Part shown: positions 2,641 to 21,471 of the stretch, one piece after another
Layout of the letters: each line of letters opens with the position of its first letter
Position numbering within the stretch: the stretch's first letter is position 1
Source: Algibacter sp. L1A34
GTDB taxonomy: Bacteria > Bacteroidota > Bacteroidia > Flavobacteriales > Flavobacteriaceae
Reading direction: 5' to 3'
DNA length: 64,000 nucleotides
Assembly: GCF_009796805.1 (NCBI RefSeq)
Contig: NZ_CP047029.1
Location: forward strand, 2,458,501-2,522,500
Notes under the pieces: model-generated
Seen by the model: the letters and a program-made list of their open reading frames with translations, nothing else
What the model was told of the DNA's origin: nothing
Databases searched by the model: none
Position numbers and translations under genes: made by a program

Positions 2641-2699
2641 AAATCCGCGAGGATTTTCGCAAGTAGGCAAAAAGCCAGCAATAAATTATATATGTTGTT
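2641..2699. repeat. attC-like repeat R1 (right half only)
   Basis: Only the central hairpin (AAAATCC-gcga-GGATTTT) and the right arm ending ATGTTGTT remain. The left half was lost at the IS3 junction. The outer sequence GTTGGCAGTA is the inverted complement of the bases before R2. Confidence 0.8.
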
Positions 2700-2730
2700 G
2701 GCAGTAGTTTTTATACCTCATTAATGAGTC

Positions 2731-3198
2731 TTATTCCGTTTGTGTTAATTGTTCATTTTTATTTATAGAAGATTTGGCAGTATTTTTATCTTTTCTATGA
2801 TTTTCAAAAATTTCCATTCCTGTCTTTAGCATTCCAATTAATCCAACTCCAAAAATGATAATTCCAAATGAAACTTCTTTTATATTTTGATTCTCTGAAA
2901 TAAAATATCCAAAAACTCCAAAAGCCAAAACTAAAAGAGTTGATATCGTAAGATAACGAATAAATATTTTTCCAAATTTTGGATTTTCCCAAAGTTTTTT
3001 TTCAAATTTAATAGAAACTTTATTTGTATCTTGAAGAGAAGCAAAACTAATTGCAAGTCCCAGAAAAATCAACATATTATTAAGGGCTTTCAGGAAATTA
3101 AATTCACTTGAGTTTAATTTAAATGTAAAATACATACCACCTATTAAAAAAGGGTATTGTAAATAACTTAAATAATGAAAGAATAATTTATTGTTCAT
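2731..3198 (-). CDS. Cassette gene: small multi-pass membrane protein
   Basis: Second gene of the cassette between R1 and R2. The 155-residue product has about four hydrophobic segments, near residues 13-30, 42-57, 85-103 and 110-125, with a polar lysine-rich C-terminal tail. I recognise no family. Its start overlaps the end of the upstream gene (3188-3388) by 11 bp, which suggests translational coupling and that the two form a two-gene cassette. Cassettes with two genes are a minority in this array. Confidence 0.65.
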   Translation of the reverse strand: MNNKLFFHYLSYLQYPFLIGGMYFTFKLNSSEFNFLKALNNMLIFLGLAISFASLQDTNKVSIKFEKKLWENPKFGKIFIRYLTISTLLVLAFGVFGYFISENQNIKEVSFGIIIFGVGLIGMLKTGMEIFENHRKDKNTAKSSINKNEQLTQTE

Positions 3199-3388
3199 TT
3201 TTTTTATTTGACTTTATAGTTACTGTTCTCATAATGCCATAAAACGCAATTAATATTCCAATAATTATTAAAATTAAAGCAGTTTTGTCATACTTTTTTA
3301 AGGATATAAGTATTATTCCTGCAAATGTAAATAGCATTCCTATTGCTGAATAAATTAATACACTCTTTTTATTTCTTAATTTTTCCAT
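3188..3388 (-). CDS. Cassette gene: 66-residue protein with two membrane segments
   Basis: A short basic N-terminus (MEKLRNKKS) is followed by two hydrophobic helices at about residues 10-29 and 34-51 and a polar basic tail. It lies upstream of the 155-residue membrane protein, and the two genes overlap by 11 bp. The start codon is about 30 bp inside the cassette from repeat R2. No family is recognised. The two products may work as a pair. Confidence 0.6.
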   Translation of the reverse strand: MEKLRNKKSVLIYSAIGMLFTFAGIILISLKKYDKTALILIIIGILIAFYGIMRTVTIKSNKKNEQ

Positions 3389-3417
3389 TTAGATTTCGTC
3401 TGTCTTAAATTACTGCC

Positions 3418-3543
3418 AACGTTTACGTATAAGAATAGTGCGTAGTTTGTGTGCGAGGATTTTCCGAAGGAAAATCAGATGCAAGCAAACGCGCATTAAC
3501 TCTTGGTTAGGCACTAAACTAAGCATTATTTTTATACAATGTT
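3418..3543. repeat. attC-like repeat R2
   Basis: 126 bp. Arms GTATAAGAATAGTGCG and GCATTATTTTTATAC pair. The central hairpin is GATTTTCC-gaa-GGAAAATC. The right outer bases GTTAGCAT are inverted before R3. Confidence 0.85.
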
Positions 3544-3820
3544 AGCATGCGTGTTTATTTTTGTCGGACTTATTTTACGAAATAGTTGCGTTTAATTTTT
3601 TAGAACCTCGAATTTTTTGAGCATGAGTAAAGTCAGTTGCTCGTTAACTTTGCGTAATGTTTGTTAAAAGTCAGATGTTTTTGCGCAAGAGTAAAGTCAG
3701 TCGCACGCAACAGTTGCGTTTTGAATGGTCAGAAGTCGGTTGAGTGAGATTTTAAGGAATCTATTTTAAACTACTTTTGAGTGATTTTTATTTTCCAGAG
3801 CTGAGTGAGACATGAATGCT
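3544..3820 (-). other. ORF-less cassette N1
   Basis: A 277-bp unit between R2 and R3 with no open frame of useful length on either strand. It contains GCACGCAACAGTTGCG, then TGGTCAGAAGTCGGTTGAGT, and near the right end GAGCTGAGTGAGACATGAAT. The same three segments recur in other gene-free units at 7281-7614 and 13972-14236, and in part at 9889-10226. Conserved sequence without a frame suggests an RNA, a regulatory unit or a decayed gene family. Confidence 0.6.
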
Positions 3821-3944
3821 AACGTTTATGTATAAGATTAGTTGCGGGTTTGTATGCGAGGGTTTTCCGAAGGAAAATCAGACGTTACTAACATGCAAAT
3901 ACCTTTGATTAAGCACTAAACCGCAATTATTTTTATACGGTGTT
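3821..3944. repeat. attC-like repeat R3
   Basis: 124 bp. Arms are GTATAAGATTAGTTGCGG and CCGCAATTATTTTTATAC. The central hairpin is GTTTTCC-gaa-GGAAAATC. The right outer bases GTTGTAAATA are matched exactly by TATTTACAAC at R4. Confidence 0.85.
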
Positions 3945-4122
3945 GTAAATAGTGATTTCTATACCATTTTAACTTATAAATCTCCATATTTATTTCATGA
4001 TGTTTTTCATTTTTAGATTTAAAAGTTACATTTTTATTCATGTTACGAGTAGTATATAATAAGTAACTTTCTTATGATTTTGTATAGAAAAGCATAAAAA
4101 AAAAGTTGTTTTAAAATGTTTT

Positions 4123-5103
4123 TTAAATTTCTTTGTTTAGGTCACTAATATCTTTAGAATTAATATTGTAAGATGTTTTTGAAGTTTTTCTAAATATTAT
4201 GTTCCCAGTTTTACCATTAATAACTGATATAATTTTATTTTCATTTACCTGAGTATGCATTAAATAGTAAAAATTTTCTTTCGAATTTAATATTTTATTA
4301 TTTAAATCTTCATTAGAAATTAGAGCATAATTATGATTATATTTCGAAAAATATTTTTCAGGTTTCTCTATTTTTTTAATTGTAGATGAAAAAGGGTCAT
4401 ACCTTTTCATCATCCAATGAGGAGCAAATAAAGTTGATTTTTTTAAATTTTTAATTTCATGTTTATCAATATAGAGGTCTCTCAATTTAGCATTAATATT
4501 TTTGTCTAAATGACTGTTTAAAAATTGAAAATAATTTTTAATATACCCTAACTCGAAATTGTAAAAACCTGCAATTTCTTTATTTTTTTTCTGCTTTTTC
4601 TTAATTATAGCTTTCTCAAGTATAGATTTTCTGTTAGAAGAATTGGTTATAACCTCCCTCTTTTTAATGTTTGGAGTGAAAAATATTTGGGCGACTGCAT
4701 TACTTTGACTTGGAGTAAAAAGACTAAAATTAAATATAATATATTCTTTTACTGTTTTATCAGGAACAGCACTATCGAATGTTACTTTGTCTTTGCGTCC
4801 TTCTTTATTTATTAATTTAATAATTACATTCTTGGAGAACTTATTATAATCAAAATTATCTTCGGAAATGAACTCAATATCATTTATTGTCCAAACATTA
4901 TTAATTATTTGCTTGAAACTATTTTCATCTAATTCATTGGGAATTACAAATATTGTTTTTGAATTTTTAATTTCATCAAATACATCTTGTTTTAATTCAG
5001 AAACGTAAATGTTTGCCCATGATTTACTTATTCCGATATTTACTTGTCCATAAGAACTTAACGCTAATAGTATTAGTAAAAAAGCGAGATTGTGTTTTTT
5101 CAT
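4123..5103 (-). CDS. Cassette gene: secreted protein of unknown function
   Basis: The 326-residue product starts with a signal peptide (MKKHNLAFLLILLALSSYGQ) with a likely cleavage after YG. The mature part is polar and basic, with a lysine-rich stretch near residues 165-180 (IIKKKQKKNKE) and no repeat or motif I recognise. This is the longest gene in the array. About 110 bp separate its start from R4, much more than in most cassettes, and the 3' side has 175 bp of spacer. It is not a family I can name. Confidence 0.65.
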   Translation of the reverse strand: MKKHNLAFLLILLALSSYGQVNIGISKSWANIYVSELKQDVFDEIKNSKTIFVIPNELDENSFKQIINNVWTINDIEFISEDNFDYNKFSKNVIIKLINKEGRKDKVTFDSAVPDKTVKEYIIFNFSLFTPSQSNAVAQIFFTPNIKKREVITNSSNRKSILEKAIIKKKQKKNKEIAGFYNFELGYIKNYFQFLNSHLDKNINAKLRDLYIDKHEIKNLKKSTLFAPHWMMKRYDPFSSTIKKIEKPEKYFSKYNHNYALISNEDLNNKILNSKENFYYLMHTQVNENKIISVINGKTGNIIFRKTSKTSYNINSKDISDLNKEI

Positions 5104-5217
5104 ATTTTTTTATTTAATCTTTAAAGGATATTTAGAGGTTACAAGCTTAATGAAAAGTATGAGATTTTTGAATTCACTCATTCCATAACATCTTCTTCAT
5201 TTTTTAGCATTATTTAC

Positions 5218-5340
5218 AACGTGATTGTGTATGGTTAGTTGCGTGGTTAAGCAACTAAGTTAGCAAACTTTTACGAACCCGTGAATATTCCGCAGGAATA
5301 TTCGCAAGTAGAGAATAATACAGCCATTAATTATACACGT
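5218..5340. repeat. attC-like repeat R4, interrupted by IS110 copy 1
   Basis: Left 123 bp of a repeat with the alternative hairpin GAATATTCC-gca-GGAATATTC and right arm AATTATACACG. The final GTT is found on the far side of the IS at 6570-6572 and is followed by GGCAAAT, the inverted complement of the bases before R5 (9 of 10). The IS therefore sits just inside the GTT core. Confidence 0.85.
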
Positions 5341-5394
5341 CTTAAGTTAGCATTTTAATAAAAACACTAAATTAAGGCCTAAAAATAAGAAAGC

Positions 5395-5530
5395 ACAAAA
5401 GAGAGGAGTAAGGTTAATATACACGCAGAAGCTTTAGACTTCGTCAACATTGAAAATCCCCTCTCTTTTCTACACAGATTTCGTACAGTTCTATGAGGCT
5501 TTTAGACCTCGATTTTAAGTCGTTGAAACT
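5395..5530 (+). ncRNA. Candidate bridge RNA of IS110 copy 1
   Basis: The left end can fold into a stem AAAAGAGAGG (5397-5406) with CCTCTCTTTT (5460-5469). The enclosed loop holds AATATACACG (5416-5425) and CAACA (5445-5449) around a small GAAG/CTTC hairpin. The first matches the left flank of the insertion sites (ATATACACG at copy 2, TATACACG at copy 1). The second is the complement of TGTTG on the right. A second loop holds ACAGTTCTATG (5485-5495), 9 of 11 identical to the right end of the IS, and TTTTAAG (5513-5519), complementary to CTTAAG at the left end. This is the layout of target and donor loops in IS110 bridge RNAs. Exact RNA ends are not known. Confidence 0.7.
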
Positions 5531-5564
5531 CGCGTAGATCGTCCTTTCAAAAAAACATTTTCTT

Positions 5565-6536
5565 ATGAATAAAGATATTAAATATTTTGGAATAGACATT
5601 AGTCATTTGGTGTTCGATGTCACGGACTCTGATGGTAATTACTATCAGTTTAAAAACAATGAACTTGGCTTTAAAAAGTTCACGAAACTTTTAAATAATA
5701 AGAGTCATTGCGTTATGGAAGCCACAGGCTATTATCATTATCAGTTAGCGTATCATTTGCTAGAATCTGGTATCAAAGTATCGGTTGAAAATCCATTGTC
5801 AGTAAAACGCTTTATACAGATGGGACTATCAAAAGTTAAGACAGATAAGAGCGATTCAAAACTTATTTGTGCTTACTCAGAGCAAGTAGAATTAAAGCTA
5901 TGGAAAGGAAATTCTAAGGAAGAAATAGAATGTCTTCAAATCGTTAGAACCCTTTCTGTATATACAAAACAAAGCACTATGCTAAAAAACAAACTACATG
6001 GAGAAGCGGTTTTGGGAAATCCAAGTAAGCTTGTTGTAACGTCTTTAAAACGTAGTTTAAGACAACTAACAAAAGAGATGAAAACTTTGGAGGATAAGCT
6101 GTTAATATTAGTAAAACAATCACATCAAGATTTATTTACCCGTTTAAAAACCATTCCAGGTATAGGACCAAAAATAGCCATTATGTTAGTGGTATTAACA
6201 GGTGGATTTGATCGTTTTACGAGCGCAAGTGAACTTTGTAGTTACGCTGGCCTTACACCTATGATCCGGCAAAGTGGAAGTAGTGTAAAAGGGAGGCCAC
6301 GAATAAGTAAAATGGGGAATCAAAAGCTTCGGAATTTATTATTTATGTGCAGTTTTAATGCGTGTAAATACAACAAAGCTTGCCGCGATCTTTATGAGCG
6401 AATCGTAGCGAAAGGAAAGAGCAAAAAATTAGCATTAATTGCCGTGTGTAATAAGCTACTAAAACAGGCTTTTGCACTAGCTAAATCAGGATTAATATAT
6501 GATGGAAACTATAAAAGTACTTTAGTGAAAAATTAA
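5565..6536 (+). CDS. IS110-family transposase (DEDD recombinase)
   Basis: A 323-residue IS110 recombinase. The RuvC-like DEDD residues appear as D11 (FGIDIS), E52 (MEATGYYHY), D94 and D97 (KTDKSDSK). The C-terminal Tnp20 domain has the helix-hairpin-helix-like TIPGIGPKIAIML and the segment RQSGSSVKGRPRISKMGN (about residues 235-252), which should carry the catalytic serine. It differs from the second copy by one residue, Ile204 here and Thr204 there. The protein uses the left-end RNA to choose its target. Confidence 0.93.
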   Translation: MNKDIKYFGIDISHLVFDVTDSDGNYYQFKNNELGFKKFTKLLNNKSHCVMEATGYYHYQLAYHLLESGIKVSVENPLSVKRFIQMGLSKVKTDKSDSKLICAYSEQVELKLWKGNSKEEIECLQIVRTLSVYTKQSTMLKNKLHGEAVLGNPSKLVVTSLKRSLRQLTKEMKTLEDKLLILVKQSHQDLFTRLKTIPGIGPKIAIMLVVLTGGFDRFTSASELCSYAGLTPMIRQSGSSVKGRPRISKMGNQKLRNLLFMCSFNACKYNKACRDLYERIVAKGKSKKLALIAVCNKLLKQAFALAKSGLIYDGNYKSTLVKN

Positions 6537-6587
6537 TACATTTTTACTTGTTTTTTACCACAGTACTTTGTTGGCAAATCGTATTTT

Positions 6588-7145
6588 TTAGTCTACCCAA
6601 CCTTGATAGTCTATTGTTTTCAGCGTGTCATTCTCAAAAGTAAAAATGAAAACAGATGTGTTCTCTAAATCTCCAATTTTGACTAAATCAGTTTCTAATT
6701 CCGATTTTAATATATTTTCAAGAGTTTTTTTATTAACTCCAATTTTGATAAATTCTAAAAACTTAAATTCCGAACTTCTTATTTTCGCAGCATAAATCCA
6801 TTCTTTGTCTTTAGCTCGATAAGAGTAAATTTTTGTTTTGTCAAATGTCTGTGTTTTAACAGTATCAGTTATTGTTTCGTTATGTGTATTTATTCTTGGT
6901 TCAGTTTTTAAATCAAACTTTGGGTTTAGAGCAAGTTTTTCCAAATCAGATTCCAGTAGAATTCGTAAACTATCGTTTTCAAAATATTGTTCAGGAATAG
7001 GAATTTCCTCAACTATTTTTTCCGTTTCTGCTTTTAATTCAGTTGTTGGTTTTTGTTCGTGAATTTCAATCTTTTGAGTTTCTTTTTGTTTGCAAGAAAT
7101 CAATAAAATTAGAATTCCGATTGAAGTTAGTAAGTGTCTTTTCAT
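6588..7145 (-). CDS. Cassette gene: lipoprotein of unknown function
   Basis: A 185-residue lipoprotein with signal MKRHLLTSIGILILLISCKQ and lipobox cysteine at residue 18. A charged glutamate/lysine-rich linker spans about residues 20-55, and a mixed alpha/beta domain follows, ending DYQGWVD. No family is recognised. The ATG lies only 9 bp inside the cassette from repeat R5 and the stop lies about 15 bp from the GTT core on the other side, so the unit is almost all gene. The plus-strand frames overlapping it are shadows. Confidence 0.75.
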   Translation of the reverse strand: MKRHLLTSIGILILLISCKQKETQKIEIHEQKPTTELKAETEKIVEEIPIPEQYFENDSLRILLESDLEKLALNPKFDLKTEPRINTHNETITDTVKTQTFDKTKIYSYRAKDKEWIYAAKIRSSEFKFLEFIKIGVNKKTLENILKSELETDLVKIGDLENTSVFIFTFENDTLKTIDYQGWVD

Positions 7146-7154
7146 ATGTTTGCC

Positions 7155-7280
7155 AACGTTTACGTATAAGAATAGTGCGTAGTTTGTGTGCGAGGATTTT
7201 CCGAAGGAAAATCAGATGCATGCAAACACGCATTTAGTCTTGATTAGGCACTAAATTACGCATTATTTTTATACAATGTT
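7155..7280. repeat. attC-like repeat R5
   Basis: 126 bp, nearly identical to R2 and R14 in arms and in the GATTTTCC/GGAAAATC hairpin. The right outer bases GTTAGCGCAC are matched exactly by GTGCGCTAAC at R6. Confidence 0.85.
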
Positions 7281-7614
7281 AGCGCACGTTGTTATGTTTT
7301 TCTCACAAGAGTATTTAAATATGATTTTTTCACGCAACAAAGAAAAGTCCGAAGCAACAGTTTCGTATTGTTTGGCAAGAGTCAGAATTTTTTAAACACA
7401 AGAGTTAAGTCAGTTGCGCGTAAACTTTACGTATTGCTTTGTCAGAAGTCGGTTTAATTTTTTATTTAATTTTAGTTTGCGAGAGTAAAATCAGACTTAG
7501 GTAACAGTTGCGTTTTGATTTGACAAAAATCAATTGAGTAAGTTTTAGTAATTGTTTTTAAAATACTTTGAGAAGGTTTATTGTTTTTTTTGAGCTGAGT
7601 GAGCAATGTGCGCT
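7281..7614 (-). other. ORF-less cassette N2
   Basis: A 334-bp unit without an open frame. It shares with N1 the element GTAACAGTTGCGTTTTGATT, GTCAGAAGTCGGTT and, at the right end, TTTGAGCTGAGTGAG. Similarity to N1 and N5 is patchy, so it looks like a more diverged member of the same family. Confidence 0.55.
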
Positions 7615-7738
7615 AACGTTTACGTATAAGAATAGTGCGGTTTTGTGTGCGAGGATTTTCCGAAGGAAAATCAGACGTAACAAAAGTGCACTAACCTTTG
7701 ATTAAGCAACTAATTTAGCATTATTTTTATACATTGTT
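7615..7738. repeat. attC-like repeat R6
   Basis: 124 bp with the GATTTTCC/GGAAAATC hairpin. The right outer bases GTTGGCAATA are matched exactly by TATTGCCAAC at R7. Confidence 0.85.
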
Positions 7739-7750
7739 GGCAATAGTTTT

Positions 7751-8359
7751 TTAATCCGAAATAACATCTCTTAATTCCAAAATATCTTCTCTAACTTTTT
7801 TGTCTTTTACCAAATTTAATGCCTTATTATTATACTTGTTGGAATTATTAAAATCATTCATTTTGTAATAAACATTAGCTATGTTGTAAAAAAAATATCC
7901 TTTTCGTTCAGAGTCCTGTTCATAATTCAATCCACTATTGTAAATAGCAATTGCTTTGTCAAATTCCTTATCCTTATTCAAAGCAACTCCATAATTCAAG
8001 TAAGTAAGTGAATATGTACTATCAATTTTAAGTGATTTTTCAAAATATTCAGAAGACTTTTTAAATTGAGATAATTCCGCTGTTTCATTTCCTAAAGCGT
8101 TAAGTATTATTTTATTATTTGGTTCGATAATATTTGCCTTTTTATATAAACTTTTAGCTTTTAAATGGTCGTTTTTTGCGCTTTTAGCAGATGCTAGGTC
8201 AAAAGTCAGAGAAGCGATTGAGTCTTTGATTTCGCCACTTTTAAATAGGTTCAAATAGTAGATTTCTGAATCTCCAGAATTTTTAGAAATTATTTTGTCA
8301 GTTTCGGTTTTGCAACTCAAAAATGTCAGAATTATAAATGCTAAGATTAGGTTTCTCAT
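7751..8359 (-). CDS. Cassette gene: tetratricopeptide-repeat lipoprotein
   Basis: The likely start is the ATG at 8359, giving MRNLILAFIILTFLSCKTE with a lipobox cysteine. An upstream ATG at 8371 overlaps the repeat core and is less likely. The mature protein has about four TPR units (NHLKAKSLYKKANIIEPNN, FKKSSEYFEKSLKIDSTYS, FDKAIAIYNSGLNYEQDSE, FNNSNKYNNKALNLVKD), so it is a helical protein-binding scaffold anchored in an outer membrane leaflet. The array holds a related but broken copy at 18159-18796. Confidence 0.8.
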   Translation of the reverse strand: MRNLILAFIILTFLSCKTETDKIISKNSGDSEIYYLNLFKSGEIKDSIASLTFDLASAKSAKNDHLKAKSLYKKANIIEPNNKIILNALGNETAELSQFKKSSEYFEKSLKIDSTYSLTYLNYGVALNKDKEFDKAIAIYNSGLNYEQDSERKGYFFYNIANVYYKMNDFNNSNKYNNKALNLVKDKKVREDILELRDVISD

Positions 8360-8369: not shown

Positions 8370-8496
8370 AACGGTTACGTATAAGAATAGTGCGTAGTTT
8401 GAGTGCGAGGATTTTCCGAAGGAAAATCAGATGCAAGCTAACAAGCACTAACTTTAGATTGAGGAATAAACTTACGCATTATTTTTATACATTGTT
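8370..8496. repeat. attC-like repeat R7
   Basis: 127 bp with the GATTTTCC/GGAAAATC hairpin. The right outer bases GTTGGCATTT match AATGCCAAC at R8 over 9 bp. Confidence 0.85.
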
Positions 8497-9039: not shown

Positions 9040-9164
9040 AACGTTTATGTATATGGAAAGTTGCGTGTTTGTGTGCGAGGATTTTCCGAAGGAAAATCAG
9101 ACGTAACAAACGTGCAACGACCTTTTGATTTAGCTAAAAATAGCAATTTTTTATATACGGTGTT
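9040..9164. repeat. attC-like repeat R8
   Basis: 125 bp. Arms GTATATGGAAAGTTGC and GCAATTTTTTATATAC pair. The hairpin is GATTTTCC/GGAAAATC. The right outer bases GTTACCTACA are matched by TGTAGGTAAC at R9. Confidence 0.85.
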
Positions 9165-9177
9165 ACCTACAGTATTT

Positions 9178-9753
9178 TTAATTCAGATTCGTGTATATTA
9201 AATCCAAGAATAATTTCCGATACATTATTTTTTGAAATTTATCTTCTGGAATTTTATTCAGCGCGTCAATTAAATATTCGCTATCAGTTTTTAAATCTCC
9301 GTAAGCCTCAAATTTGTTATAAGCTAATCCAAATTCAAATTGCCAACTTGACTTGTCTAAAATTTTTAGTTGTTCAAATAAATAACCATAGCAAGATAAA
9401 TGGGAATTAATCGGAAATAACAAATATGGGTCAAATCCTAAATCCGATTTAAGTTTCTCAAAAAACTCAGGCTCTATTTCTTTGCGACTTGCCTTTTTTA
9501 ATAATTCCGTATATCCGTTTTTGCTTATTTCAATCAGATATTTTTCTTGAATTAGTGAATTTTCTAATAAACTATGAATATTTTGTTTGTAAATCAGCTT
9601 TCCCTCAATCGGTCCAACTTCCGTAACGAGTCGATTATATTTGATTTCAGAGCATAATTCAAACTTTTCGTCCGCAATTAGGTCAGTCGTATTTTTAGTT
9701 GAACCACAAGCTGTGATTAAAGTCAGAATTATTATTTGAAGCAGTTTTTTCAA
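9178..9753 (-). CDS. Cassette gene: lipoprotein of unknown function
   Basis: A 191-residue lipoprotein with signal MKKLLQIIILTLITACGSTK and cysteine at residue 16. The mature part is mostly charged and probably helical, with paired aromatic residues (SCYGYLFEQLKIL, SWQFEFGLAYNKFEAYGDL). I recognise no domain. The ATG lies 10 bp inside the cassette from R9, the tight spacing seen in most units of the array. Confidence 0.72.
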   Translation of the reverse strand: MKKLLQIIILTLITACGSTKNTTDLIADEKFELCSEIKYNRLVTEVGPIEGKLIYKQNIHSLLENSLIQEKYLIEISKNGYTELLKKASRKEIEPEFFEKLKSDLGFDPYLLFPINSHLSCYGYLFEQLKILDKSSWQFEFGLAYNKFEAYGDLKTDSEYLIDALNKIPEDKFQKIMYRKLFLDLIYTNLN

Positions 9754-9763
9754 TATTGTAGGT

Positions 9764-9888
9764 AACGTTGCATGTATGGAAAGTTGCGTTTTCGAGTGCG
9801 AGGATTTTCCGCAGGAAAATCAGCCGCTATCGAAAAAAGCACTAACCAAAGTGTTTGCCTAAAATAGCAATTTTTTATACATATTGTT
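9764..9888. repeat. attC-like repeat R9
   Basis: 125 bp with hairpin GATTTTCC-gca-GGAAAATC and arms GTATGGAAAGTTGC and GCAATTTTTTATAC. The right outer bases GTTAGCGTGC are matched by GCACGCTAA at R10. Confidence 0.85.
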
Positions 9889-10226: not shown

Positions 10227-10351
10227 AATGTTGTTGTATAAGCTTTGTTGCGTGGTTTAAGCAGTTAATTTAGTAAATAAAACACGAACGGCGAAATTCC
10301 GGAGGAATTTCCCAAGTGAGCCAAAACTAGCAATAAAGTTTATACGGTGTT
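10227..10351. repeat. attC-like repeat R10 (AAT in place of AAC)
   Basis: 125 bp. The left core reads AAT rather than AAC, the only such case in the array. The hairpin is GAAATTCC-gga-GGAATTTC. The right outer bases GTTAGCCA match TGGCTAAC at R11. Confidence 0.8.
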
Positions 10352-10912: not shown

Positions 10913-11037
10913 AACGGTCACGGCTATGGTTTCGTTGCGCGAAACATAGACGGTTTTTTTGTTAAGGCACTAAGATAGTAAAAATGGGAGGAATTTTCCA
11001 GCGGAAAATTCCAGCGCAATGAACTATAGGCAATGTT
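10913..11037. repeat. attC-like repeat R11 (diverged)
   Basis: 125 bp. The most diverged member, with the hairpin GGAATTTTCC-agc-GGAAAATTCC displaced to the right half. The right outer bases GTTAGCGACA are matched exactly by TGTCGCTAAC at R12. Confidence 0.75.
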
Positions 11038-11389: not shown

Positions 11390-11513
11390 AACGTTTATGT
11401 ATAAGAATAGTTGCGGGTTTGTATGCGAGGAATTTCCGAAGGAAATTCAGACGTTACAAACACGCAACGACCTTTGATTAAGCACTAAACCGCAATTATT
11501 TTTATACGGTGTT
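11390..11513. repeat. attC-like repeat R12
   Basis: 124 bp, nearly identical to R20, with which it shares the duplicated cassette to its right. The hairpin is GAATTTCC-gaa-GGAAATTC. The right outer bases GTTGCCATT match AATGGCAAC at R13. Confidence 0.85.
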
Positions 11514-11682
11514 GCCATTTCGTTGTTTTTCAGAGTTCAAATTATCCGATTAAACTCCGTTTTCCACTTTTCAGCGATTGAGTAAATTCATTCAGCGTTT
11601 TATTCCGCAATATTTTCAATTCCGAAACTAGCTAAATTCTACTCAAAATTCATTCAGCGTTTGAGCGATAATACAGTGTCTT

Positions 11683-11871
11683 TTATTCAGCCGTTTGCTT
11701 TTTATTCCTGAAAATTTTAAAAATTAATGAAGCATTAATAATAAATGCAGGAATTATAAAAACATCTTTAACTGTGTTTATTCCCAGAACGTCATATTGT
11801 AAAAATATCATCGAAAGGAAAATAATAATTGTCGAAATTATTAATCCAGTTTTTATGTAATTCATATTCAA
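11683..11871 (-). CDS. Cassette gene: 62-residue membrane protein (copy A)
   Basis: Two hydrophobic helices at about residues 6-26 and 36-54 with a basic C-terminal tail (RNKKQTAE). The protein is identical to the product of 19088-19276, and the surrounding cassette, including its repeat, is duplicated there. About 165 bp between the gene and R12 carry a recurring ATTCAGCGTTT motif but no frame. The function is unknown. Exact conservation of the protein in both copies fits recent duplication. Confidence 0.65.
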   Translation of the reverse strand: MNMNYIKTGLIISTIIIFLSMIFLQYDVLGINTVKDVFIIPAFIINASLIFKIFRNKKQTAE

Positions 11872-11995
11872 TTTGTTTTAGTTAGATTTTCGTAAAGTTA
11901 TTCAATTCAGTTTTTTATTCAACGTTTTATTTGTCAAAAATTAGCTTTTTCTAAATTCAGATTTCCCTTTTCGAGTGCGTTACGCAATGAATGGC

Positions 11996-12117
11996 AACGT
12001 GTTTGTGTATGGTTAGTTGCGTGGTTAAGCAACTAAGTTAGTAAACTTTAACGAACCCGTGAATATTCCGCAGGAATATTCGCAAGTAAGCTCAATGAAG
12101 CAATTAAATATACACGG
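11996..12117. repeat. attC-like repeat R13, interrupted by IS110 copy 2
   Basis: Left 122 bp with hairpin GAATATTCC-gca-GGAATATTC and right arm AAATATACACGG. The GTT core is completed at 13347-13349 beyond the IS and is followed by GTACGTA, the inverted complement of the bases before R14. Confidence 0.85.
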
Positions 12118-12171
12118 CTTAAGTTAGCATTTTAATAAAAACACTAAATTAAGGCCTAAAAATAAGAAAGC

Positions 12172-12307
12172 ACAAAAGAGAGGAGTAAGGTTAATATACA
12201 CGCAGAAGCTTTAGACTTCGTCAACATTGAAAATCCCCTCTCTTTTCTACACAGATTTCGTACAGTTCTATGAGGCTTTTAGACCTCGATTTTAAGTCGT
12301 TGAAACT
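12172..12307 (+). ncRNA. Candidate bridge RNA of IS110 copy 2
   Basis: Identical in layout to the candidate in copy 1. The guide-like AATATACACG lies at 12193-12202. The flank of this insertion reads AAATATACACGG, so the match is 9-10 bases without mismatch, better than at copy 1. Assignment is by sequence complementarity only. Confidence 0.7.
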
Positions 12308-12341
12308 CGCGTAGATCGTCCTTTCAAAAAAACATTTTCTT

Positions 12342-13313
12342 ATGAATAAAGATATTAAATATTTTGGAATAGACATTAGTCATTTGGTGTTCGATGTCAC
12401 GGACTCTGATGGTAATTACTATCAGTTTAAAAACAATGAACTTGGCTTTAAAAAGTTCACGAAACTTTTAAATAATAAGAGTCATTGCGTTATGGAAGCC
12501 ACAGGCTATTATCATTATCAGTTAGCGTATCATTTGCTAGAATCTGGTATCAAAGTATCGGTTGAAAATCCATTGTCAGTAAAACGCTTTATACAGATGG
12601 GACTATCAAAAGTTAAGACAGATAAGAGCGATTCAAAACTTATTTGTGCTTACTCAGAGCAAGTAGAATTAAAGCTATGGAAAGGAAATTCTAAGGAAGA
12701 AATAGAATGTCTTCAAATCGTTAGAACCCTTTCTGTATATACAAAACAAAGCACTATGCTAAAAAACAAACTACATGGAGAAGCGGTTTTGGGAAATCCA
12801 AGTAAGCTTGTTGTAACGTCTTTAAAACGTAGTTTAAGACAACTAACAAAAGAGATGAAAACTTTGGAGGATAAGCTGTTAATATTAGTAAAACAATCAC
12901 ATCAAGATTTATTTACCCGTTTAAAAACCATTCCAGGTATAGGACCAAAAACAGCCATTATGTTAGTGGTATTAACAGGTGGATTTGATCGTTTTACGAG
13001 CGCAAGTGAACTTTGTAGTTACGCTGGCCTTACACCTATGATCCGGCAAAGTGGAAGTAGTGTAAAAGGGAGGCCACGAATAAGTAAAATGGGGAATCAA
13101 AAGCTTCGGAATTTATTATTTATGTGCAGTTTTAATGCGTGTAAATACAACAAAGCTTGCCGCGATCTTTATGAGCGAATCGTAGCGAAAGGAAAGAGCA
13201 AAAAATTAGCATTAATTGCCGTGTGTAATAAGCTACTAAAACAGGCTTTTGCACTAGCTAAATCAGGATTAATATATGATGGAAACTATAAAAGTACTTT
13301 AGTGAAAAATTAA
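12342..13313 (+). CDS. IS110-family transposase, second copy
   Basis: A 323-residue DEDD recombinase with D11, E52, D94 and D97, identical to the first copy except Thr204 in place of Ile204 in the GIGPK motif region. The reading frame is intact, so both copies may be active. Confidence 0.93.
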   Translation: MNKDIKYFGIDISHLVFDVTDSDGNYYQFKNNELGFKKFTKLLNNKSHCVMEATGYYHYQLAYHLLESGIKVSVENPLSVKRFIQMGLSKVKTDKSDSKLICAYSEQVELKLWKGNSKEEIECLQIVRTLSVYTKQSTMLKNKLHGEAVLGNPSKLVVTSLKRSLRQLTKEMKTLEDKLLILVKQSHQDLFTRLKTIPGIGPKTAIMLVVLTGGFDRFTSASELCSYAGLTPMIRQSGSSVKGRPRISKMGNQKLRNLLFMCSFNACKYNKACRDLYERIVAKGKSKKLALIAVCNKLLKQAFALAKSGLIYDGNYKSTLVKN

Positions 13314-13362
13314 TACATTTTTACTTGTTTTTTACCACAGTACTTTGTTGTACGTAGTGTTT

Positions 13363-13845: not shown

Positions 13846-13971
13846 AACGGTTACGTATAAGAATAGTGCGTAGTTTGTGTGCGAGGATTTTCCGAAGGAA
13901 AATCAGATGCAACCAAACGCGCATTTACTCTTGGTTAGGTACTAAACTAAGCATTATTTTTATACAATGTT
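13846..13971. repeat. attC-like repeat R14
   Basis: 126 bp, close to R2 and R5, with the GATTTTCC/GGAAAATC hairpin. The right outer bases GTTGGCAT match ATGCCAAC at R15. Confidence 0.85.
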
Positions 13972-14236: not shown

Positions 14237-14362
14237 AACGTGATTGTGTATGGTTAGTTGCGTGATTTAAGGAACTAAGTTAGCAAATAAATCACAGATA
14301 GAATATTCCGCAGGAATGTTCGTAAGTAGGCTTAAAATAAGCAATTAATTATACACGGTGTT
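14237..14362. repeat. attC-like repeat R15
   Basis: 126 bp, of the subclass with right arm AATTATACACGGTGTT and hairpin GAATATTCC-gca-GGAATGTTC. The right outer bases GTTGTGGTG match CACCACAAC at R16. Confidence 0.85.
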
Positions 14363-15008: not shown

Positions 15009-15135
15009 AACGTTTATGTATATAATTCAGTAAGGAATTTAAAATTAACTGATTTTCAGATGTTTAACTGTCTTTTTTAAACGCGCGATTTACTCAAATT
15101 GATTACTTAACTCCTTATTGATTATATACTGTGTT
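15009..15135. repeat. attC-like repeat R16 (diverged)
   Basis: 127 bp. The arms GTATATAATTCAGTAAGGA and TCCTTATTGATTATATAC pair well, but the central hairpin is not of the TTCCGNAGGAA type. The right outer bases GTTGTATG match CATACAAC at R17, which lies 1.4 kb away. Confidence 0.75.
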
Positions 15136-15701: not shown

Positions 15702-15851
15702 ATTCTTATTTCATTTCGTGCGTTATATGCCGCACAGTTAGTAATTCCGATTGAGTGAGCTTTTCACGTACTACTTGTCAGTCATACGTAACAGTTGCGT
15801 TGTGCTTTGGTCAGTCAGATTTTTATTATATTAGTAAAAAATATATTTTCA

Positions 15852-16298: not shown

Positions 16299-16462
16299 GG
16301 CTCTGTATTTATTTGTTTCAAAGTATTTATGTAGATACACTTATAATCTACTTCACATACACCTTTTTCTGGATGTTCAATATATACTAATTTTCCAAGC
16401 ATAAATCTTGATAAATCATCTCCAGTTATTTTTACAAGGCTTGGTCCAAGTTCAGTATTCAT
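16295..16462 (-). CDS. Small ORF: 55-residue cassette-oriented protein
   Basis: The frame runs from ATG at 16462 (MNTELGPSLVKITGDDLSRF) to TAA at 16295, overlapping the end of the plus-strand gene by 4 bp. The product is soluble with balanced charge and continues LGKLVYIEHPEKGVCEVDYK. It has the usual cassette orientation and lies about 70 bp from R17, so it may be the proper first gene of this 1.4-kb unit. No family is recognised. Confidence 0.45.
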   Translation of the reverse strand: MNTELGPSLVKITGDDLSRFMLGKLVYIEHPEKGVCEVDYKCIYINTLKQINTEP

Positions 16463-16531
16463 AAGTCATTGTTATTTCAACAACTCTTTTATATACTTCT
16501 ATACTGTATGAGTGGGTTAGTACTTGCATAC

Positions 16532-16658
16532 AACGGTTTTGTGTATGGTTAGTTGCGTGTTTAAGCAACTAATTTAGTAAACAAAAACGAACGCGAGAAA
16601 ATTCCGAAGGAATTTTCCAAATAAGCACTTGCCAAAGCAATTAATTATACACGGTGTT
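16532..16658. repeat. attC-like repeat R17
   Basis: 127 bp, subclass with right arm AATTATACACGGTGTT and hairpin GAAAATTCC-gaa-GGAATTTTC. The right outer bases GTTGCCAGTA are matched exactly by TACTGGCAAC at R18. Confidence 0.85.
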
Positions 16659-16669
16659 GCCAGTAGTTT

Positions 16670-17266
16670 TTATTCCTTTTCGGTCAGTTTTATTTCAATC
16701 GAACTTTCGGGAAAACCTATCAGTTTATTTTCAAAGATATACATTACTCTATCTCTCATTATTAAACTATCCTTTTCTATTTTATAATCATAGTTATTTA
16801 GAAACCGTAATGATAATTTCAGACTGTCTCCAAGTTTTTCATATTCTCCATAATATAGAGTCAAAATAGAATCTTTAGAATGTTTCTTTATTTCTCTTAA
16901 ACTTACTCCATCAGGATTTTTTTCAATGTGTATTATAAAACTTCTGTTATCGTTCGTGAAACTAAATTCCGAATAATCGAATGGATGATTTTCCAACCAA
17001 GAATTCCAAAAGAAAGTAAAAAGTAGGGGACAAATAATTCCGTTAATAAGGAACAAAGCTGAATATCCTTTTTTTATGAAGTATAGAATTATTGCAATCA
17101 ATAAGTTTATTCCGATAGTTATAAATCTAGGGAATGTAATTCCATTAGACATAAATATATTCGGCTCAATATCAGCAACCCATATTTTCAGTAGAAATAT
17201 GTCAATTAATAAAATCAGAACTCCAATTCCGATAAATAATTTTTTTTCTGATTTCGTCATTCTCAA
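16670..17266 (-). CDS. Cassette gene: membrane protein of unknown function
   Basis: 198 residues with three or four membrane helices in the first half (about 9-30, 45-63 and 68-88: LFIGIGVLILLIDIFLL, FITIGINLLIAIILYFI, ALFLINGIICPLLFTFFW). A soluble C-terminal half of about 100 residues follows and is rich in beta-like segments. A start two codons in (MTKSEKK, 17260) is equally good. The gene start is within 10-16 bp of R18 and the stop 12 bp from R17. No family is recognised. Confidence 0.68.
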   Translation of the reverse strand: MRMTKSEKKLFIGIGVLILLIDIFLLKIWVADIEPNIFMSNGITFPRFITIGINLLIAIILYFIKKGYSALFLINGIICPLLFTFFWNSWLENHPFDYSEFSFTNDNRSFIIHIEKNPDGVSLREIKKHSKDSILTLYYGEYEKLGDSLKLSLRFLNNYDYKIEKDSLIMRDRVMYIFENKLIGFPESSIEIKLTEKE

Positions 17267-17275
17267 ATTACTGGC

Positions 17276-17399
17276 AACGTTGATGTATAAGAATAGTTGC
17301 GGGTTTGTATGCGAGGATTTTCCGAAGGAAAATCAGATGTAGCAAACACGCAACTACCTTTTTTTTAGCACTAAACCGCAATTATTTTTATACGGTGTT
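17276..17399. repeat. attC-like repeat R18
   Basis: 124 bp with arms GTATAAGAATAGTTGCGG and CCGCAATTATTTTTATAC and the GATTTTCC/GGAAAATC hairpin. The right outer bases GTTAGGCACA are matched exactly by TGTGCCTAAC at R19. Confidence 0.85.
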
Positions 17400-17410
17400 A
17401 GGCACAGTTT

Positions 17411-18004
17411 TTATTCTTTTTTTATTTCTCCATTTTCGTTAAACAGAGTTGTTTTTATTAAAATTCCGTCATTGTCATAAACAGAAACTTCTTTAATTTT
17501 TCCGTTTTGATAATATCTTTTTAATTCTCCGATTACAAGTCCGTTTTTAAATTCCGCTTTCAGCCGAATTTTTCCGTTTGAGTAATAATCAGTTTCAATT
17601 CCGTCACAAACCTTTTCGCAATTCATAAACTTATAGTTAGGAATTATTCCAAGTTTTTTAAGTTGTTCCCGACTTGTGCCTTTTTTATAGGAAACATTTG
17701 TCTTTTTTATATATTCTTCGATTCTCGGTTTAACTAAAGTGTCTGAATTTATTAGTTTGTCAATTACAATTTTACGTACTTCTCCAATTTCGGTTGCGAC
17801 AAGTTTATACTCTCCTTTAGTCAGAAGAATTATTGTTCCGTCAAAGTCCGATATATTATACTTGGTTCCGTCCTTTTCAAGATGATAGTAATCACTTCTT
17901 TCAATTTCGTTTGAGCAAGAATCTTTCAAAAATAGATTGAATTTAATTTCTTGACTAAATCCAGAAATGGTAGAAAAAAGTAATATTAAAATCGTTAATT
18001 TCAT
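17411..18004 (-). CDS. Cassette gene: secreted YwqK/MORN-variant repeat protein
   Basis: The 197-residue product has a signal peptide (MKLTILILLFSTISGFSQ). The last about 60 residues carry three MORN-variant repeats of the YwqK type (DYYSNGKIRLKAEFKNG, RYYQNGKIKEVSVYDNDG, TLFNENGEIKKE). Such proteins are common in Bacteroidota and are often annotated as toxin-antitoxin YwqK family antitoxins, but that role is not shown for secreted forms. The N-terminal half is not recognised. Confidence 0.75.
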   Translation of the reverse strand: MKLTILILLFSTISGFSQEIKFNLFLKDSCSNEIERSDYYHLEKDGTKYNISDFDGTIILLTKGEYKLVATEIGEVRKIVIDKLINSDTLVKPRIEEYIKKTNVSYKKGTSREQLKKLGIIPNYKFMNCEKVCDGIETDYYSNGKIRLKAEFKNGLVIGELKRYYQNGKIKEVSVYDNDGILIKTTLFNENGEIKKE

Positions 18005-18024
18005 TGGTCTGTCAAATTGTGCCT

Positions 18025-18150
18025 AACGGTTACGTATATGGAAAGTTGCGTGTTTGTATGCGAGGATTTTCCGAAGGAAAATCAGCAGCTAGCAAACAAA
18101 GCAACTAAGATTGGTTAAGCTAAAAATAGCAATTTTTTATATACAATGTT
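18025..18150. repeat. attC-like repeat R19
   Basis: 126 bp with arms GTATATGGAAAGTTGC and GCAATTTTTTATATAC and the GATTTTCC/GGAAAATC hairpin. The right outer bases GTTGGCAGTA are matched exactly at R20 and are the same ten bases as at the R1-R2 cassette. Confidence 0.85.
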
Positions 18151-18158
18151 GGCAGTAG

Positions 18159-18796
18159 TTATTTTTCATTTATTGTTTCTCTAAATTTCAGAATCTCTTT
18201 TTTCAAAACTTCGTCGTTAACCAATTGAATTGATTTATTGATGTTAATTTTAGCATTGCTATCGTCATACAGTTGATAATATGCTCGTGACATATTATAA
18301 TGAAAATAACCTCTTTTTTCTCCACTTCTTTTCAAGACTAATTCCTTTGTTGTATAGGTTCGATTGCTTTATTAAATTCATCGTTTCTTGCTCTTGAAAA
18401 GCCATAATTCAAATAGGTTATTGCATCAAGGCTATCAATCCGCAAAGATTGTTCAAAGTATTCATAGGACTTATCAAAGTCTTTAAGGTCAGCACTTACA
18501 TTCCCTAAAGCATTAATTATAATTGTATTATTAGGTTCTAGTTTATTTGCGGATTCATAAAATCCTCTAGAGCTTTTAAAGTTCAGTTGGGAACTTTGCT
18601 CAATACCTTTGTCAAAGTCAAAAGCAGCTATTGAGTCTTTAATCAGTCCATTTTCAAACGAGTTTTTATAAAACACATTTGTATTTCCGTCTTTTGTTGT
18701 AACAATTTTTTCTTTGTCAGAATAGATATCATTCTTACAGCTCAAAATGAAAATAAAAATTATTAATATGTACAGGTGTTTCATAATTACTGCCAA
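18159..18796 (-). pseudogene. Frameshifted paralogue of the tetratricopeptide lipoprotein cassette gene
   Basis: The open part (18338-18796, best start ATG at 18784) reads MKHLYILIIFIFILSCKNDI and continues through two TPR units closely related to the gene at 7751-8359 (SYEYFEQSLRIDSLDAITYLN against SEYFEKSLKIDSTYSLTYLN). It then stops early after KAIEPIQQRN. The missing C-terminus is present in other frames: YNKGISLEK, then SGEKRGYFHYNMSRAYYQLY through to FRETINEK and a stop at 18159. Two small frameshifts explain this. Sequencing error is an alternative explanation. Confidence 0.75.
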
Positions 18797-18918
18797 CGTT
18801 TATGTATAAGAATAGTTGCGGGTTTGTATGCGAAGATTTTCCGAAGGAAAATCAGACGTTACAAACACGCAACGACCTTTGATTAAGCACTAAACCGCAA
18901 TTATTTTTATACGGTGTT
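18795..18918. repeat. attC-like repeat R20
   Basis: 124 bp, near copy of R12. They differ mainly in the hairpin stem (GATTTTCC here, GAATTTCC in R12). The right outer bases GTTGCCATT match AATGGCAAC at R21. Confidence 0.85.
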
Positions 18919-19087
18919 GCCATTTCGTTGTTTTTCAGAGTTCAAATTATCCGATTAAACTCCGTTTTCCACTTTTCAGCGATTGAGTAAATTCATTCAG
19001 CGTTTTATTCCGCAATATTTTCAATTCCGAAACTAGCTAAATTCTACTCAAAATTCATTCAGCGTTTGAGTGATTATACAGAGTCTT

Positions 19088-19276
19088 TTATTCAGCCGTT
19101 TGCTTTTTATTCCTGAAAATTTTAAAAATTAATGAAGCATTAATAATAAATGCAGGAATTATAAAAACATCTTTAACTGTGTTTATTCCCAGAACGTCAT
19201 ATTGTAAAAATATCATCGAAAGGAAAATAATAATTGTCGAAATTATTAATCCAGTTTTTATGTAATTCATATTCAA
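19088..19276 (-). CDS. Cassette gene: 62-residue membrane protein (copy B)
   Basis: The product is identical in all 62 residues to that of 11683-11871. The whole unit from the repeat through the gene is duplicated, with scattered single-base differences outside the frame. Two membrane helices, no family recognised. One copy lies second from the recombinase and the other far down the array, as expected if a cassette was excised or copied and re-inserted near the attI end. Confidence 0.65.
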   Translation of the reverse strand: MNMNYIKTGLIISTIIIFLSMIFLQYDVLGINTVKDVFIIPAFIINASLIFKIFRNKKQTAE

Positions 19277-19400
19277 TTTGTTTTAGTTAGATTTTCGTAA
19301 AGTTATTCAATTCAGTTTTTTATTCAACGTTTTATTTGTCAAAAATTAGCTTTTTCTAAATTCAGCTTTCCCTTTTCGAGTGCGTTACGCAATGAATGGC

Positions 19401-19526
19401 AACGTGATTGTGTATGGTTAGTTGCGTGGTTAAGCAACTAATTTAGTAAATAAATCACAGATAGAATATTCCGCAGGAATGTTCGTAAGTCGGCAGTGAA
19501 CCAAGCAATTAATTATACACGGTGTT
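19401..19526. repeat. attC-like repeat R21
   Basis: 126 bp, subclass with right arm AATTATACACGGTGTT and hairpin GAATATTCC-gca-GGAATGTTC. The right outer bases GTTACCAAC are matched by GTTGGTAAC at about 20262-20270, which marks the boundary of the first cassette. Confidence 0.85.
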
Positions 19527-20181
19527 ACCAACTGTGTTTTCTATCTGGGATTCTATAATTTATCGAAATCCTATCTTCAATTTTGACTAACTTCGTTTTT
19601 GCAGGTTTTGGTGTTTGGTTATCCTCTTTTTGATGCGGTTCTGATTCATCAAATTCAATCAGTTCAATATTGGTCTCTGGAATTATATAAACTTGCGAAT
19701 AATCTGTATCGATATCTAATCGACCAAATCTTTTTATATTTTTAAAATAAATAGTCAATTGTTGAATACCATTGTGTCTCATTAAAGTTCCTATTTCAAA
19801 TGTTTTTGAGCTACTTGGATGGTCATTAATTACATAACCATATTTATCAGATTGTTTACTCAAGTCTTTAGTCAGATATAGAGTATCACTAATTTTAATT
19901 TCAATATTTTCCTTTATTCCATAATATAGAAGTTGAATAACATTTGATGTGTCATTTTTAATCGCTATTTGCTTTTCTAATGCATTCAGTTTTATTTTTT
20001 CTTTTCTTTTTTGAGTGAAACTTTCCCATTTTTTAGAGTTAATAGTATCTGAGAGGCTAACAATTCGAGCTGGTTTAAAATCCTCTATTCTAGTTATTTC
20101 TTTATATTCTTTATATTCTTTATTCTGTCCAAATAAATTAATTTGAACAAGAACAATCGATATAAATATAAGTTTTTTCAT
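19525..20181 (-). CDS. First cassette gene: secreted protein of unknown function
   Basis: I place the start at ATG 20181, which gives the signal peptide MKKLIFISIVLVQINLFGQ. A frame beginning at 20274 with TTG adds 31 residues that lack sense as a leader. The mature protein of about 200 residues is polar with a beta-rich middle (YGVINDHPSSSKTFEIGTLM, VYIIPETNIELIEFDESEP) and a proline/lysine linker. The stop codon TAA is the TGGTAAC core of R21. This is the unit next to the recombinase and so, by integron logic, the latest to be inserted. Confidence 0.68.
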   Translation of the reverse strand: MKKLIFISIVLVQINLFGQNKEYKEYKEITRIEDFKPARIVSLSDTINSKKWESFTQKRKEKIKLNALEKQIAIKNDTSNVIQLLYYGIKENIEIKISDTLYLTKDLSKQSDKYGYVINDHPSSSKTFEIGTLMRHNGIQQLTIYFKNIKRFGRLDIDTDYSQVYIIPETNIELIEFDESEPHQKEDNQTPKPAKTKLVKIEDRISINYRIPDRKHSW

Positions 20182-20261
20182 TTTTGGTAACGTATTTTTC
20201 TTAAAATTCAGAAAGCGATAAATTCGGATTCGGAACAGGTTTTTGCTTTTCACGAACCACA

Positions 20262-20343
20262 TTGTTGGTAACAATTGTATATAGTTAGTACTAACTATAT
20301 ATCTATTATATGTAGTACTAACTATATATCTATTATATGCGCA
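20262..20343. other. Candidate attI-like integration site with tandem 27-bp repeats
   Basis: Between the first cassette boundary (GTTGGTAAC, 20262-20270) and the end of the recombinase gene lie two adjacent copies of a 27-bp unit, beginning TAGTACTAACTATATATCTA and ending TTATATG, preceded by a partial copy. The unit contains the near-palindrome TAGTTAGTACTAACTA. Position and direct repeats resemble attI sites of integrons, but the sequence is unrelated to known attI. Confidence 0.55.
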
Positions 20344-21471
20344 CTAAGATAGTAAATCTTTAATTTCTGTAAAGGAACTTGTAGCAACATGTGTATAAAT
20401 TTCTGTAGTTTTAGTAGAGTTATGTCCTAAAAGTAATTGAATGTAGCGAATATCTGTACCACTTTCCAGTAAATGCGTGGCAAAACTATGTCTTAACATA
20501 TGGGGAGTAACTCTTTGTTTAATACCTGCATTTTTGGCAGATTTAACAACAATTTGTAATACACTAGAGCTACTGTATGGATTGCCAGGAATGGGATTTT
20601 CAAACAAATATGTTTTAGGTCTGTAAATTTTAAAATACGTTCTCATGTCTTCCAGAACACTTTTGTTGAGAACTGTATAGCGGTCTTTATTACCTTTAGC
20701 TTGTTCAACTCTAATAACCATTCTTTTACTATCAATGTCTTTTATTTTTAATTGTAAGAGTTCATTTCTTCGTAAGCCAGAAGAGTACAATAAGCTTATA
20801 ATACATTTATGTTTTATGTTGTTCGTAAAGTTAATTATTGTAATTATTTCTTCTTTCGATAATACTTTTGGCAATTTAGATTCTTTTCTAGGTCTTTCAA
20901 TAGAGTAGAACCGGTTAGGCATTCCTAAAACCATTTCGTAATAAAATTTAATAGCATTGATAGACATATTAATATATGAATTAGACTTGTCTTCTTTAAT
21001 TAGTTTTTGAAGATAGAGCCTAATATCATTTTCGTTAATACTAAATAATTCCCTTTGTTTATAATGATTAATAAATTTCTCAAAACTATGAACATAGTTT
21101 TTTACTGTGCTATTCGAATATTTTTTTAGTTCTAATTTTTGTAGAAATTCATCAGGACATGTTCTAAAATTTTTTTTTATAGATCGTTCTCTAAACCAAG
21201 ATACATCCGTAGTTTTGTTATCACTATTAAGTTTTCTGTCTTTAAAAAAGTAGTTGCAATTAACCCAGGCAACACCCTTAAATTTTTCAAAAACCAAACT
21301 GACATTAGATTTGTTGTTTAGAATATATACCATATTAAACTCTTTACTCCATTTAGGGTTTGGTAATTCTTTAATTAGAGCTTGAATGACTTTATCTGAG
21401 TTGAATTGTAAGCCAATACATTGTTTTTCTTTAATAAAAAGATGTTTCAATGTGATATGTTTATTTAGCAT
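20344..21471 (-). CDS. Tyrosine recombinase of the cassette array (XerC/D-like, not a typical IntI)
   Basis: The 375-residue tyrosine recombinase has all catalytic residues: R234 (SGLRRNEL), K259 (AKGNKDR), H324 and R327 (TPHMLRHSFATH), H350 (LLGHNS) and Y359 (TEIYTHV). A SAM-like core-binding domain spans about 107-185. Residues 1-105 are an additional N-terminal domain absent from XerC/D and IntI1. The stretch between the lysine motif and HxLR has only the usual 60 residues, so the extra IntI-specific segment is missing. It lies directly beside the array and is transcribed in the same direction as the cassettes, unlike class 1 integrons, where intI points away. It is the obvious candidate for moving the cassettes. 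Confidence 0.9.
   Translation of the reverse strand: MLNKHITLKHLFIKEKQCIGLQFNSDKVIQALIKELPNPKWSKEFNMVYILNNKSNVSLVFEKFKGVAWVNCNYFFKDRKLNSDNKTTDVSWFRERSIKKNFRTCPDEFLQKLELKKYSNSTVKNYVHSFEKFINHYKQRELFSINENDIRLYLQKLIKEDKSNSYINMSINAIKFYYEMVLGMPNRFYSIERPRKESKLPKVLSKEEIITIINFTNNIKHKCIISLLYSSGLRRNELLQLKIKDIDSKRMVIRVEQAKGNKDRYTVLNKSVLEDMRTYFKIYRPKTYLFENPIPGNPYSSSSVLQIVVKSAKNAGIKQRVTPHMLRHSFATHLLESGTDIRYIQLLLGHNSTKTTEIYTHVATSSFTEIKDLLS

Follow-up and report, generated by a model that had tools for sequence, protein, structure and literature searches.

What moves the genes in a row of palindromic repeats that lies beside a tyrosine recombinase in the chromosome of Algibacter sp. L1A34? In integrons, attC sites fold as single strands and IntI joins attC to attI; IntI serves both to define integrons and to search for them. 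The locus lies in a window of 64,000 nucleotides, the whole stretch that was analysed (2458501-2522500 of the single 4.64-Mb contig). Our analysis indicates that window positions 2641-21943 very probably form an integron-like array, the units of which are likely excised and inserted by the adjacent recombinase, which would act on sites with a predicted single-stranded fold. The system is an integron variant: it works in an integron-like way, but two features of IntI integrons, the insertion in the integrase and the RYYYAAC/GTTRRRY core, are absent.

Sites, units and single-unit copies

The first-pass annotation had described 21 palindromic repeats of 124-127 bp, one half deleted, which separate 21 small units with AAC/GTT cores and near-uniform gene orientation, and this description holds. 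Positions 2641-19526 contain 21 sites, all given here on the plus strand: 18 intact, two split by an IS110 element and one half site. The intact sites are palindromic and span 124-127 nt from AAC to GTT: R2 (3418..3543), R3 (3821..3944), R5 (7155..7280), R6 (7615..7738), R7 (8370..8496), R8 (9040..9164), R9 (9764..9888), R10 (10227..10351), R11 (10913..11037), R12 (11390..11513), R14 (13846..13971), R15 (14237..14362), R16 (15009..15135), R17 (16532..16658), R18 (17276..17399), R19 (18025..18150), R20 (18795..18918) and R21 (19401..19526). The split sites R4 (5218..6572, transposase 5565-6536, +) and R13 (11996..13349, transposase 12342-13313, +) measure 1354-1355 nt. The half site (2641..2699), identified by its sequence, retains only the right arm and is truncated by an IS3-family element; the sites of a relative, which match window 2640-2714 at 84%, support it. 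A DNA cytosine methylase fragment (619-1230) stops at the same IS3-family element. The AAC/GTT cores are present throughout, the single exception being the left end of R10, which reads AAT. Most of the 21 units carry one short minus-strand gene, and the last unit is bounded by an attI-like junction at 20270.

A site model, R1, was built from the 18 intact window sites. Applied to the 4.64-Mb genome, it recovered 98 sites at E 1e-3 (150 candidates scored), with best scores down to 1e-30, a result well above what chance would give. These are concentrated in a few arrays, with lone sites at about six other places. At the head of one of them, array B, stands a second recombinase of the same kind (44% identity), and a third array, array C (C1:4288136-4331937), holds about 30 sites. 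Over the seven arrays of the genome (92 units in total), 67 of the 76 units with an open reading frame of at least 60 aa are oriented the same way. Sites of about 190 nt, roughly 60 nt above the usual length, occur in normal arrays as well (6/76 sites of this genome, and at L040, L032, L012 and other loci).

If the unit is the mobile entity, the letters outside AAC/GTT must match across the two ends of one unit and not across one repeat. As expected from this, at least five letters in a row beside AAC/GTT were complementary in 21/21 window units. The mean run was 6.3, versus 1.2 in shuffled data, and a value as high arose in 0 of 50,000 shuffles; within one repeat the run averages 0.9. The shuffle test took 20189 as the boundary of the last unit, and with 20270 the run of that unit is six. 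Complementarity of at least four letters was found in 25/29 units of array B, 25/27 of array C and 16/18 model-detected units of the window, and in the smaller arrays D (3/3), E (1/3) and F (3/4). By the same four-letter measure, the ends of 85 of 92 units were complementary at 26 loci of other species, compared with 15 of 141 when the two ends of one site were paired with each other. This comparison left aside elongated, truncated and upstream matches; of 196 matches, the 141 sites are those in which AAC and GTT were both present. Every unit brings along the two halves of its site, so that, as in integrons, the cassette bears complementary core-site halves with the crossover at GTT. Beyond AAC/GTT, the cores do not fit RYYYAAC/GTTRRRY, again as first annotated: only 4 of the 74 units in which AAC and GTT were found conform, while GTTR fits all 74.

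The arms pair in the consensus of 18 sites, and 11 of 21 pairs are kept via two-sided changes in at least one sequence, a count uncorrected for kinship. When the fold was computed with the unit's own ends joined, the bottom strand (relative to the genes) was predicted to be more stable than the top strand in 18/18 intact sites, by a mean of 4.6 kcal/mol. It was also predicted to be more stable than the site left in its array context (18/18, mean 6.1). By prediction, the sites are therefore imperfect palindromes with a folding bottom strand, as integron attC sites are.

Judged by their copies, units have moved singly within and between arrays. The unit at 17276..18027 (-), which encodes a 197-aa MORN_2 protein, recurs letter for letter over its 752 nt in array B, some 1.46 Mb distant, and a 463-nt cassette (7155..7617, -) has an exact copy in array C. 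Another cassette exists in three copies: the one at 18795..19403 (-) matches a unit of array C exactly over 609 nt and is 602/609 identical to the one at 11390..11998 (-). A 515-nt unit occurs in five exact copies in array B, with a sixth (515/515) directly at the attI of that array. The exact units occupy separate arrays of the same chromosome, with mostly unrelated neighbours. In 14/14 copy pairs examined, out of 21 found, identity ends 0-4 nt left of AAC and 4-11 nt past the start of the next AAC. By these limits, the exchange falls at AACG, which reads CGTT in the orientation of the genes, and homologous recombination across the repeat is disfavoured.

Beyond this genome, one cassette, among the matches listed, is common to another species of the genus (G470): its gene and both ends (9142..9769, -) are 98% identical there. 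When that copy (L114, G470:C6:485900-487600) was compared with window 9040-9769, near-identity covered the gene, its end letters and roughly the final 20 nt of the site. In Lacinutrix algicola, identity to window sites reaches 99%, against 81% for the recombinase region, and this difference suggests a transfer of sites between genera. The unit-level movement for which the first-pass annotation had proposed a check is thus visible, without strain-level genomes, in single-unit copies beside different neighbours.

Repeats of about 125 bp and up to 99% identity could themselves act as homology, and interspersed palindromic repeats might then have been moved by homologous recombination or unequal crossing-over, without a site-specific enzyme. 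The existence of genomes that carry sites without the recombinase (15/100), and the left breakpoint of the G470-shared cassette, which falls within a site arm, are in line with such a process. However, copied units lose identity beside AACG in every examined pair and not across the 125-bp repeat, homology gives no cause for unit-end complementarity, and it sits poorly with exact units in separate arrays among mostly unrelated neighbours. We regard this explanation as highly improbable.

Movement in trans by another element, for instance the IS110 within sites, or by host XerC/D was considered as well. Each of the seven IS110 copies detected in the genome borders a site, always at the same position in the arm, and Xer relatives are encoded as well. 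However, the ends of IS110 lie next to GTT in the right arm, while those of copied units fall at the AAC of the left arm; 18 of the 20 two-armed window sites are free of IS110; the Xer relatives are encoded outside the arrays; and neither IS110 nor Xer accounts for an attI behind the recombinase. Action in trans therefore has a very small probability in our view.

The recombinase, its partner gene and the attI-like site

The tyrosine recombinase adjacent to the array (20344..21471, -; 375 aa, Phage_integrase) consists of an extra N-terminal domain (about residues 1-95), a SAM-like domain (107-183) and a catalytic domain (202-364). Alignment places the active-site tyrosine at Y359. The predicted fold of residues 1-79 is nearest to archaeal XPB damage-recognition domains and, more weakly, to SMARCAL1 HARP. 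By recombinase, the nearest named relatives are Algibacter. Two motifs are spaced 64-66 residues apart in 68 of 69 relatives measured, with one outlier of 141 (80 relatives tried, 11 without both motifs), versus 106 in true IntI (9 of 10 loci with both motifs found). In the alignment to the integron integrase structure 2a3v, the recombinase has 20 residues and IntI 61 in the IntI-specific segment. The clade is thus devoid of the insertion of about 40 residues near patch III, in agreement with the first-pass annotation, which had named a non-IntI recombinase without this segment.

Profile scores concur with that name. The recombinase scored 207 bits with TIGR02249, below the cut-off of 265, and fell short of the XerC/XerD equivalog profiles TIGR02225 (194.6, cut-off 329.6) and TIGR02224 (187.4, cut-off 335.15), while NF040815 (XerA-type) was above its cut-off. 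The recombinase could nevertheless be an integrase of a clade derived from IntI by loss of the insertion, and not of a separate or older line. In the tree, FX, the clade of this recombinase, groups with IntI against Xer with support of 100/96, and the best Foldseek match in the PDB is 2a3v. On the other side, a sequence search of the PDB ranked the archaeal XerC-like 4a8e first, the XerA-type profile is passed while TIGR02249 is not, and approximately unbiased (AU) tests do not reject the alternative placements of FX (p 0.09). A derived IntI seems to us somewhat unlikely. Of the earlier claim of an independent or strongly diverged cassette-capture system, the capture part stands on single-unit copies and on the linkage of sites with the recombinase; the choice between independent and strongly diverged meets a tree that puts FX beside IntI and AU tests that do not reject alternatives.

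A divergent gene for a 126-aa protein follows at 21563..21943 (+), and some sources assign its relatives to the DUF2116 family Zn-ribbon. This conserved partner is present in 76 of 81 loci and divergent in 76/76. The IntI insertion has been characterized as essential to the function of integrons (PMC8138268), which suggests that its part is played here by something else; hypothetically, this could be the extra N-terminal domain or the partner protein. If the clade truly works without the insertion, the rules of folding-site recombination would need widening.

Directly behind the recombinase gene lies an attI-like site (20270..20343, -), composed of a perfect 24-nt palindrome (20278-20301), 5 nt and the GTT junction (20270-20272). 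A palindrome of changing letters followed by a spacer of 3-11 nt and GTT, right behind the recombinase stop codon, was found in 54 of the 80 sequences compared, which comprise the window and 79 loci. Among the 45 rows of sufficient length, identity averages 55% in the 20 nt before GTT and 35% in the 60 nt after it (maximum 60%); between the window and its four nearest relatives, the corresponding values are 70-100% and 22-48%. When the window was compared with the loci of six near relatives, homology extended from about 20261 to 21943-22110, and farther out only sites and short flanks matched. These limits define a conserved platform that consists of the recombinase, the partner gene and attI. 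As in integrons, attI stands beside the integrase gene with the first cassette joined at GTT, and the same arrangement is found in array B.

Linkage of sites and recombinase in Flavobacteriaceae

Linkage of the sites to this recombinase, for which the annotation had also proposed a check, was found both locally and across genomes. Among the 80 relatives' loci retained, the sequence runs on for 1.5 kb or more downstream of the recombinase in 49, and sites were detected in that stretch in 44 of the 49 (E 0.01); three matches lay upstream. With stricter R1 filters, sites were detected in 82 of 100 sampled genomes of Flavobacteriaceae, the present one included, and in 32 of 198 genomes of the class sample; all five genomes of the genus carry them. 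The recombinase was found in 72 of the 100 family genomes at E 1e-45, a cut-off set between the paralogue in the L1A34 genome and the Xer relatives. Sites and recombinase co-occur (67 genomes with both, 13 with neither, 15 with sites only, 5 with recombinase only; p 1.9e-5).

The architecture and the AAC/GTT cores could also belong to a canonical IntI integron or its remnant, with IntI elsewhere or lost and the nearby recombinase a bystander. True IntI is indeed common elsewhere in the phylum, being above cut-off in 57 of 198 genomes, one of them in the class (120 of the 198 had no match and stayed outside the listing). However, no canonical IntI was found at E 1e-50 in any of the 19 listed genomes of the family, the present one included, and R1 detected no site at E<0.01 in 10 true-IntI loci, which amount to only 36 kb. 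Since the classical core fits so few units and the sites lie behind the present recombinase in nearly all loci with enough sequence, a canonical IntI integron is very unlikely indeed. In Flavobacteriaceae, the present clade appears to stand in for IntI.

The arrays seem to break assemblies: in 43 of 80 loci the contig stops no more than 2.5 kb downstream of the recombinase, and in 5 it does so upstream. This could help explain why the arrays went unnoticed. No description of the system was found in the open-access literature; subscription papers and preprints were outside that search. The gene-capture system, carried by most of the flavobacterial genera sampled, has probably been overlooked so far. 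If the clade does the job of IntI without the insertion, a cassette pool present in 82 of the 100 sampled family genomes becomes searchable.

Working model, known relatives and cargo

In gene orientation, a cassette reads GTT, 5-7 variable letters, the gene, the complementary letters, AAC, the site body and C|GTT. The unit would leave as a circle excised by the recombinase, and the bottom strand of its site would fold into a long hairpin. The recombinase would then join the folded site to attI or to another site, and replication would resolve the joined product. The unit, its boundaries, its movement, attI and the linkage are established at the level of sequence; the circle, the strand and the enzyme of the model we infer by analogy with integrons.

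Several observations weigh against this reading. Catalysis is ascribed to the recombinase from its position, and the strand preference is an energy prediction. The palindrome rule yields no attI in 26 of 80 sequences, array C has no recombinase beside it, and the genomes with sites but no recombinase match, together with the 5 in the reverse situation, do not follow the linkage. The copy pair C26/C04 shares also the next 100 nt, into the next site, at 99%. None of the unit cores was found at the nucleotide level in the 80 relatives' loci, and among five genus genomes the 752-nt cassette is present in its own only, being absent from 4/4 others. Moreover, the G470 cassette sits on a different site body, with identity beginning in the right arm about 20 nt before GTT. 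To judge from this copy, site bodies can be exchanged as well, through homology or a crossover at the other of the two cores, an event outside the predictions of a simple unit model.

Compared with sedentary chromosomal IntI integrons, the array is alike in its units that read in one direction, most with a single gene, its inverted AAC/GTT cores, complementary core halves carried by the unit, a bottom-strand folding bias (predicted here), an attI beside the integrase gene and integrase-less arrays elsewhere. It differs in an integrase that lacks the IntI insertion and has an additional N-terminal domain, in a divergent partner gene that is conserved beside it, in a palindromic attI, in cores that misfit the classical consensus and in a recombinase gene that reads in the same direction as the cassettes. 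The clade resembles archaeal XerA and bacterial XerC-XerD in motif spacing (64-66 versus 66-72) and in having 4a8e as its closest PDB sequence. Whereas dif systems serve to resolve chromosome dimers and use one or a few sites, the present clade has an extra domain and arrays of sites. The IS110 insertions recall the IS1111-attC group, IS110-type elements that sit in the recombination sites of IntI integrons; unlike that group, they occupy sites of the present kind and not IntI attC. Integrons of Bacteroidetes/Chlorobi, such as those of Salinibacter ruber M1, were found with IntI and attC models (PMC9024848). They belong to the same broad phylum and have integron architecture, and Flavobacteriaceae are not named in the covered portion of that source.

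Taken together, these features may define a second class of integrons. In it, an insertion-less recombinase line would capture cassettes via folded sites, with its own palindromic attI, possibly an XPB-DRD/HARP-like N-terminal domain and a Zn-ribbon partner. For marine Flavobacteriaceae, it would be the chief store of cassettes, one that escapes tools designed around IntI and classical attC. We give this broader proposal about an even chance.

Most window cassette proteins that were scanned had no Pfam match above cut-off; one TPR and one MORN_2 protein occur. Seven proteins, the partner protein included, were submitted to PADLOC. It recognized a type IIG restriction enzyme in array B (1189 bits), a PDC-S42-like and a HEC-06-like protein in array C and an AriAB-like protein in a small array, and gave no match for the partner protein. 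With the type IIG, AriAB-like and PDC-S42-like cassettes, the system may be a store of defence genes.

Relatives of the recombinase were also met on plasmids. On pHH1107 (L108; 5043-5708, 5904-7064), a tpnF fragment 54% identical to recombinase residues 145-374 lies directly before tet(X3), and the same tpnF match fills 22 of 30 rows among the matches listed, nearly all Acinetobacter plasmids. At some time in the past, tet(X3) may have been captured behind a platform of this type; a convincing site of the kind described here did not turn up at the locus. A Parabacteroides distasonis plasmid (L111) carries a related integrase followed by small genes on the same strand (Tdi1-domain immunity, SMI1/KNR4), and R1 finds no site there. 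On the Chryseobacterium plasmid NZ_CP041688.1 (L109), a related recombinase is accompanied by three R1 sites downstream (E 7e-8 to 2e-6), which indicates that the platform occurs on plasmids.

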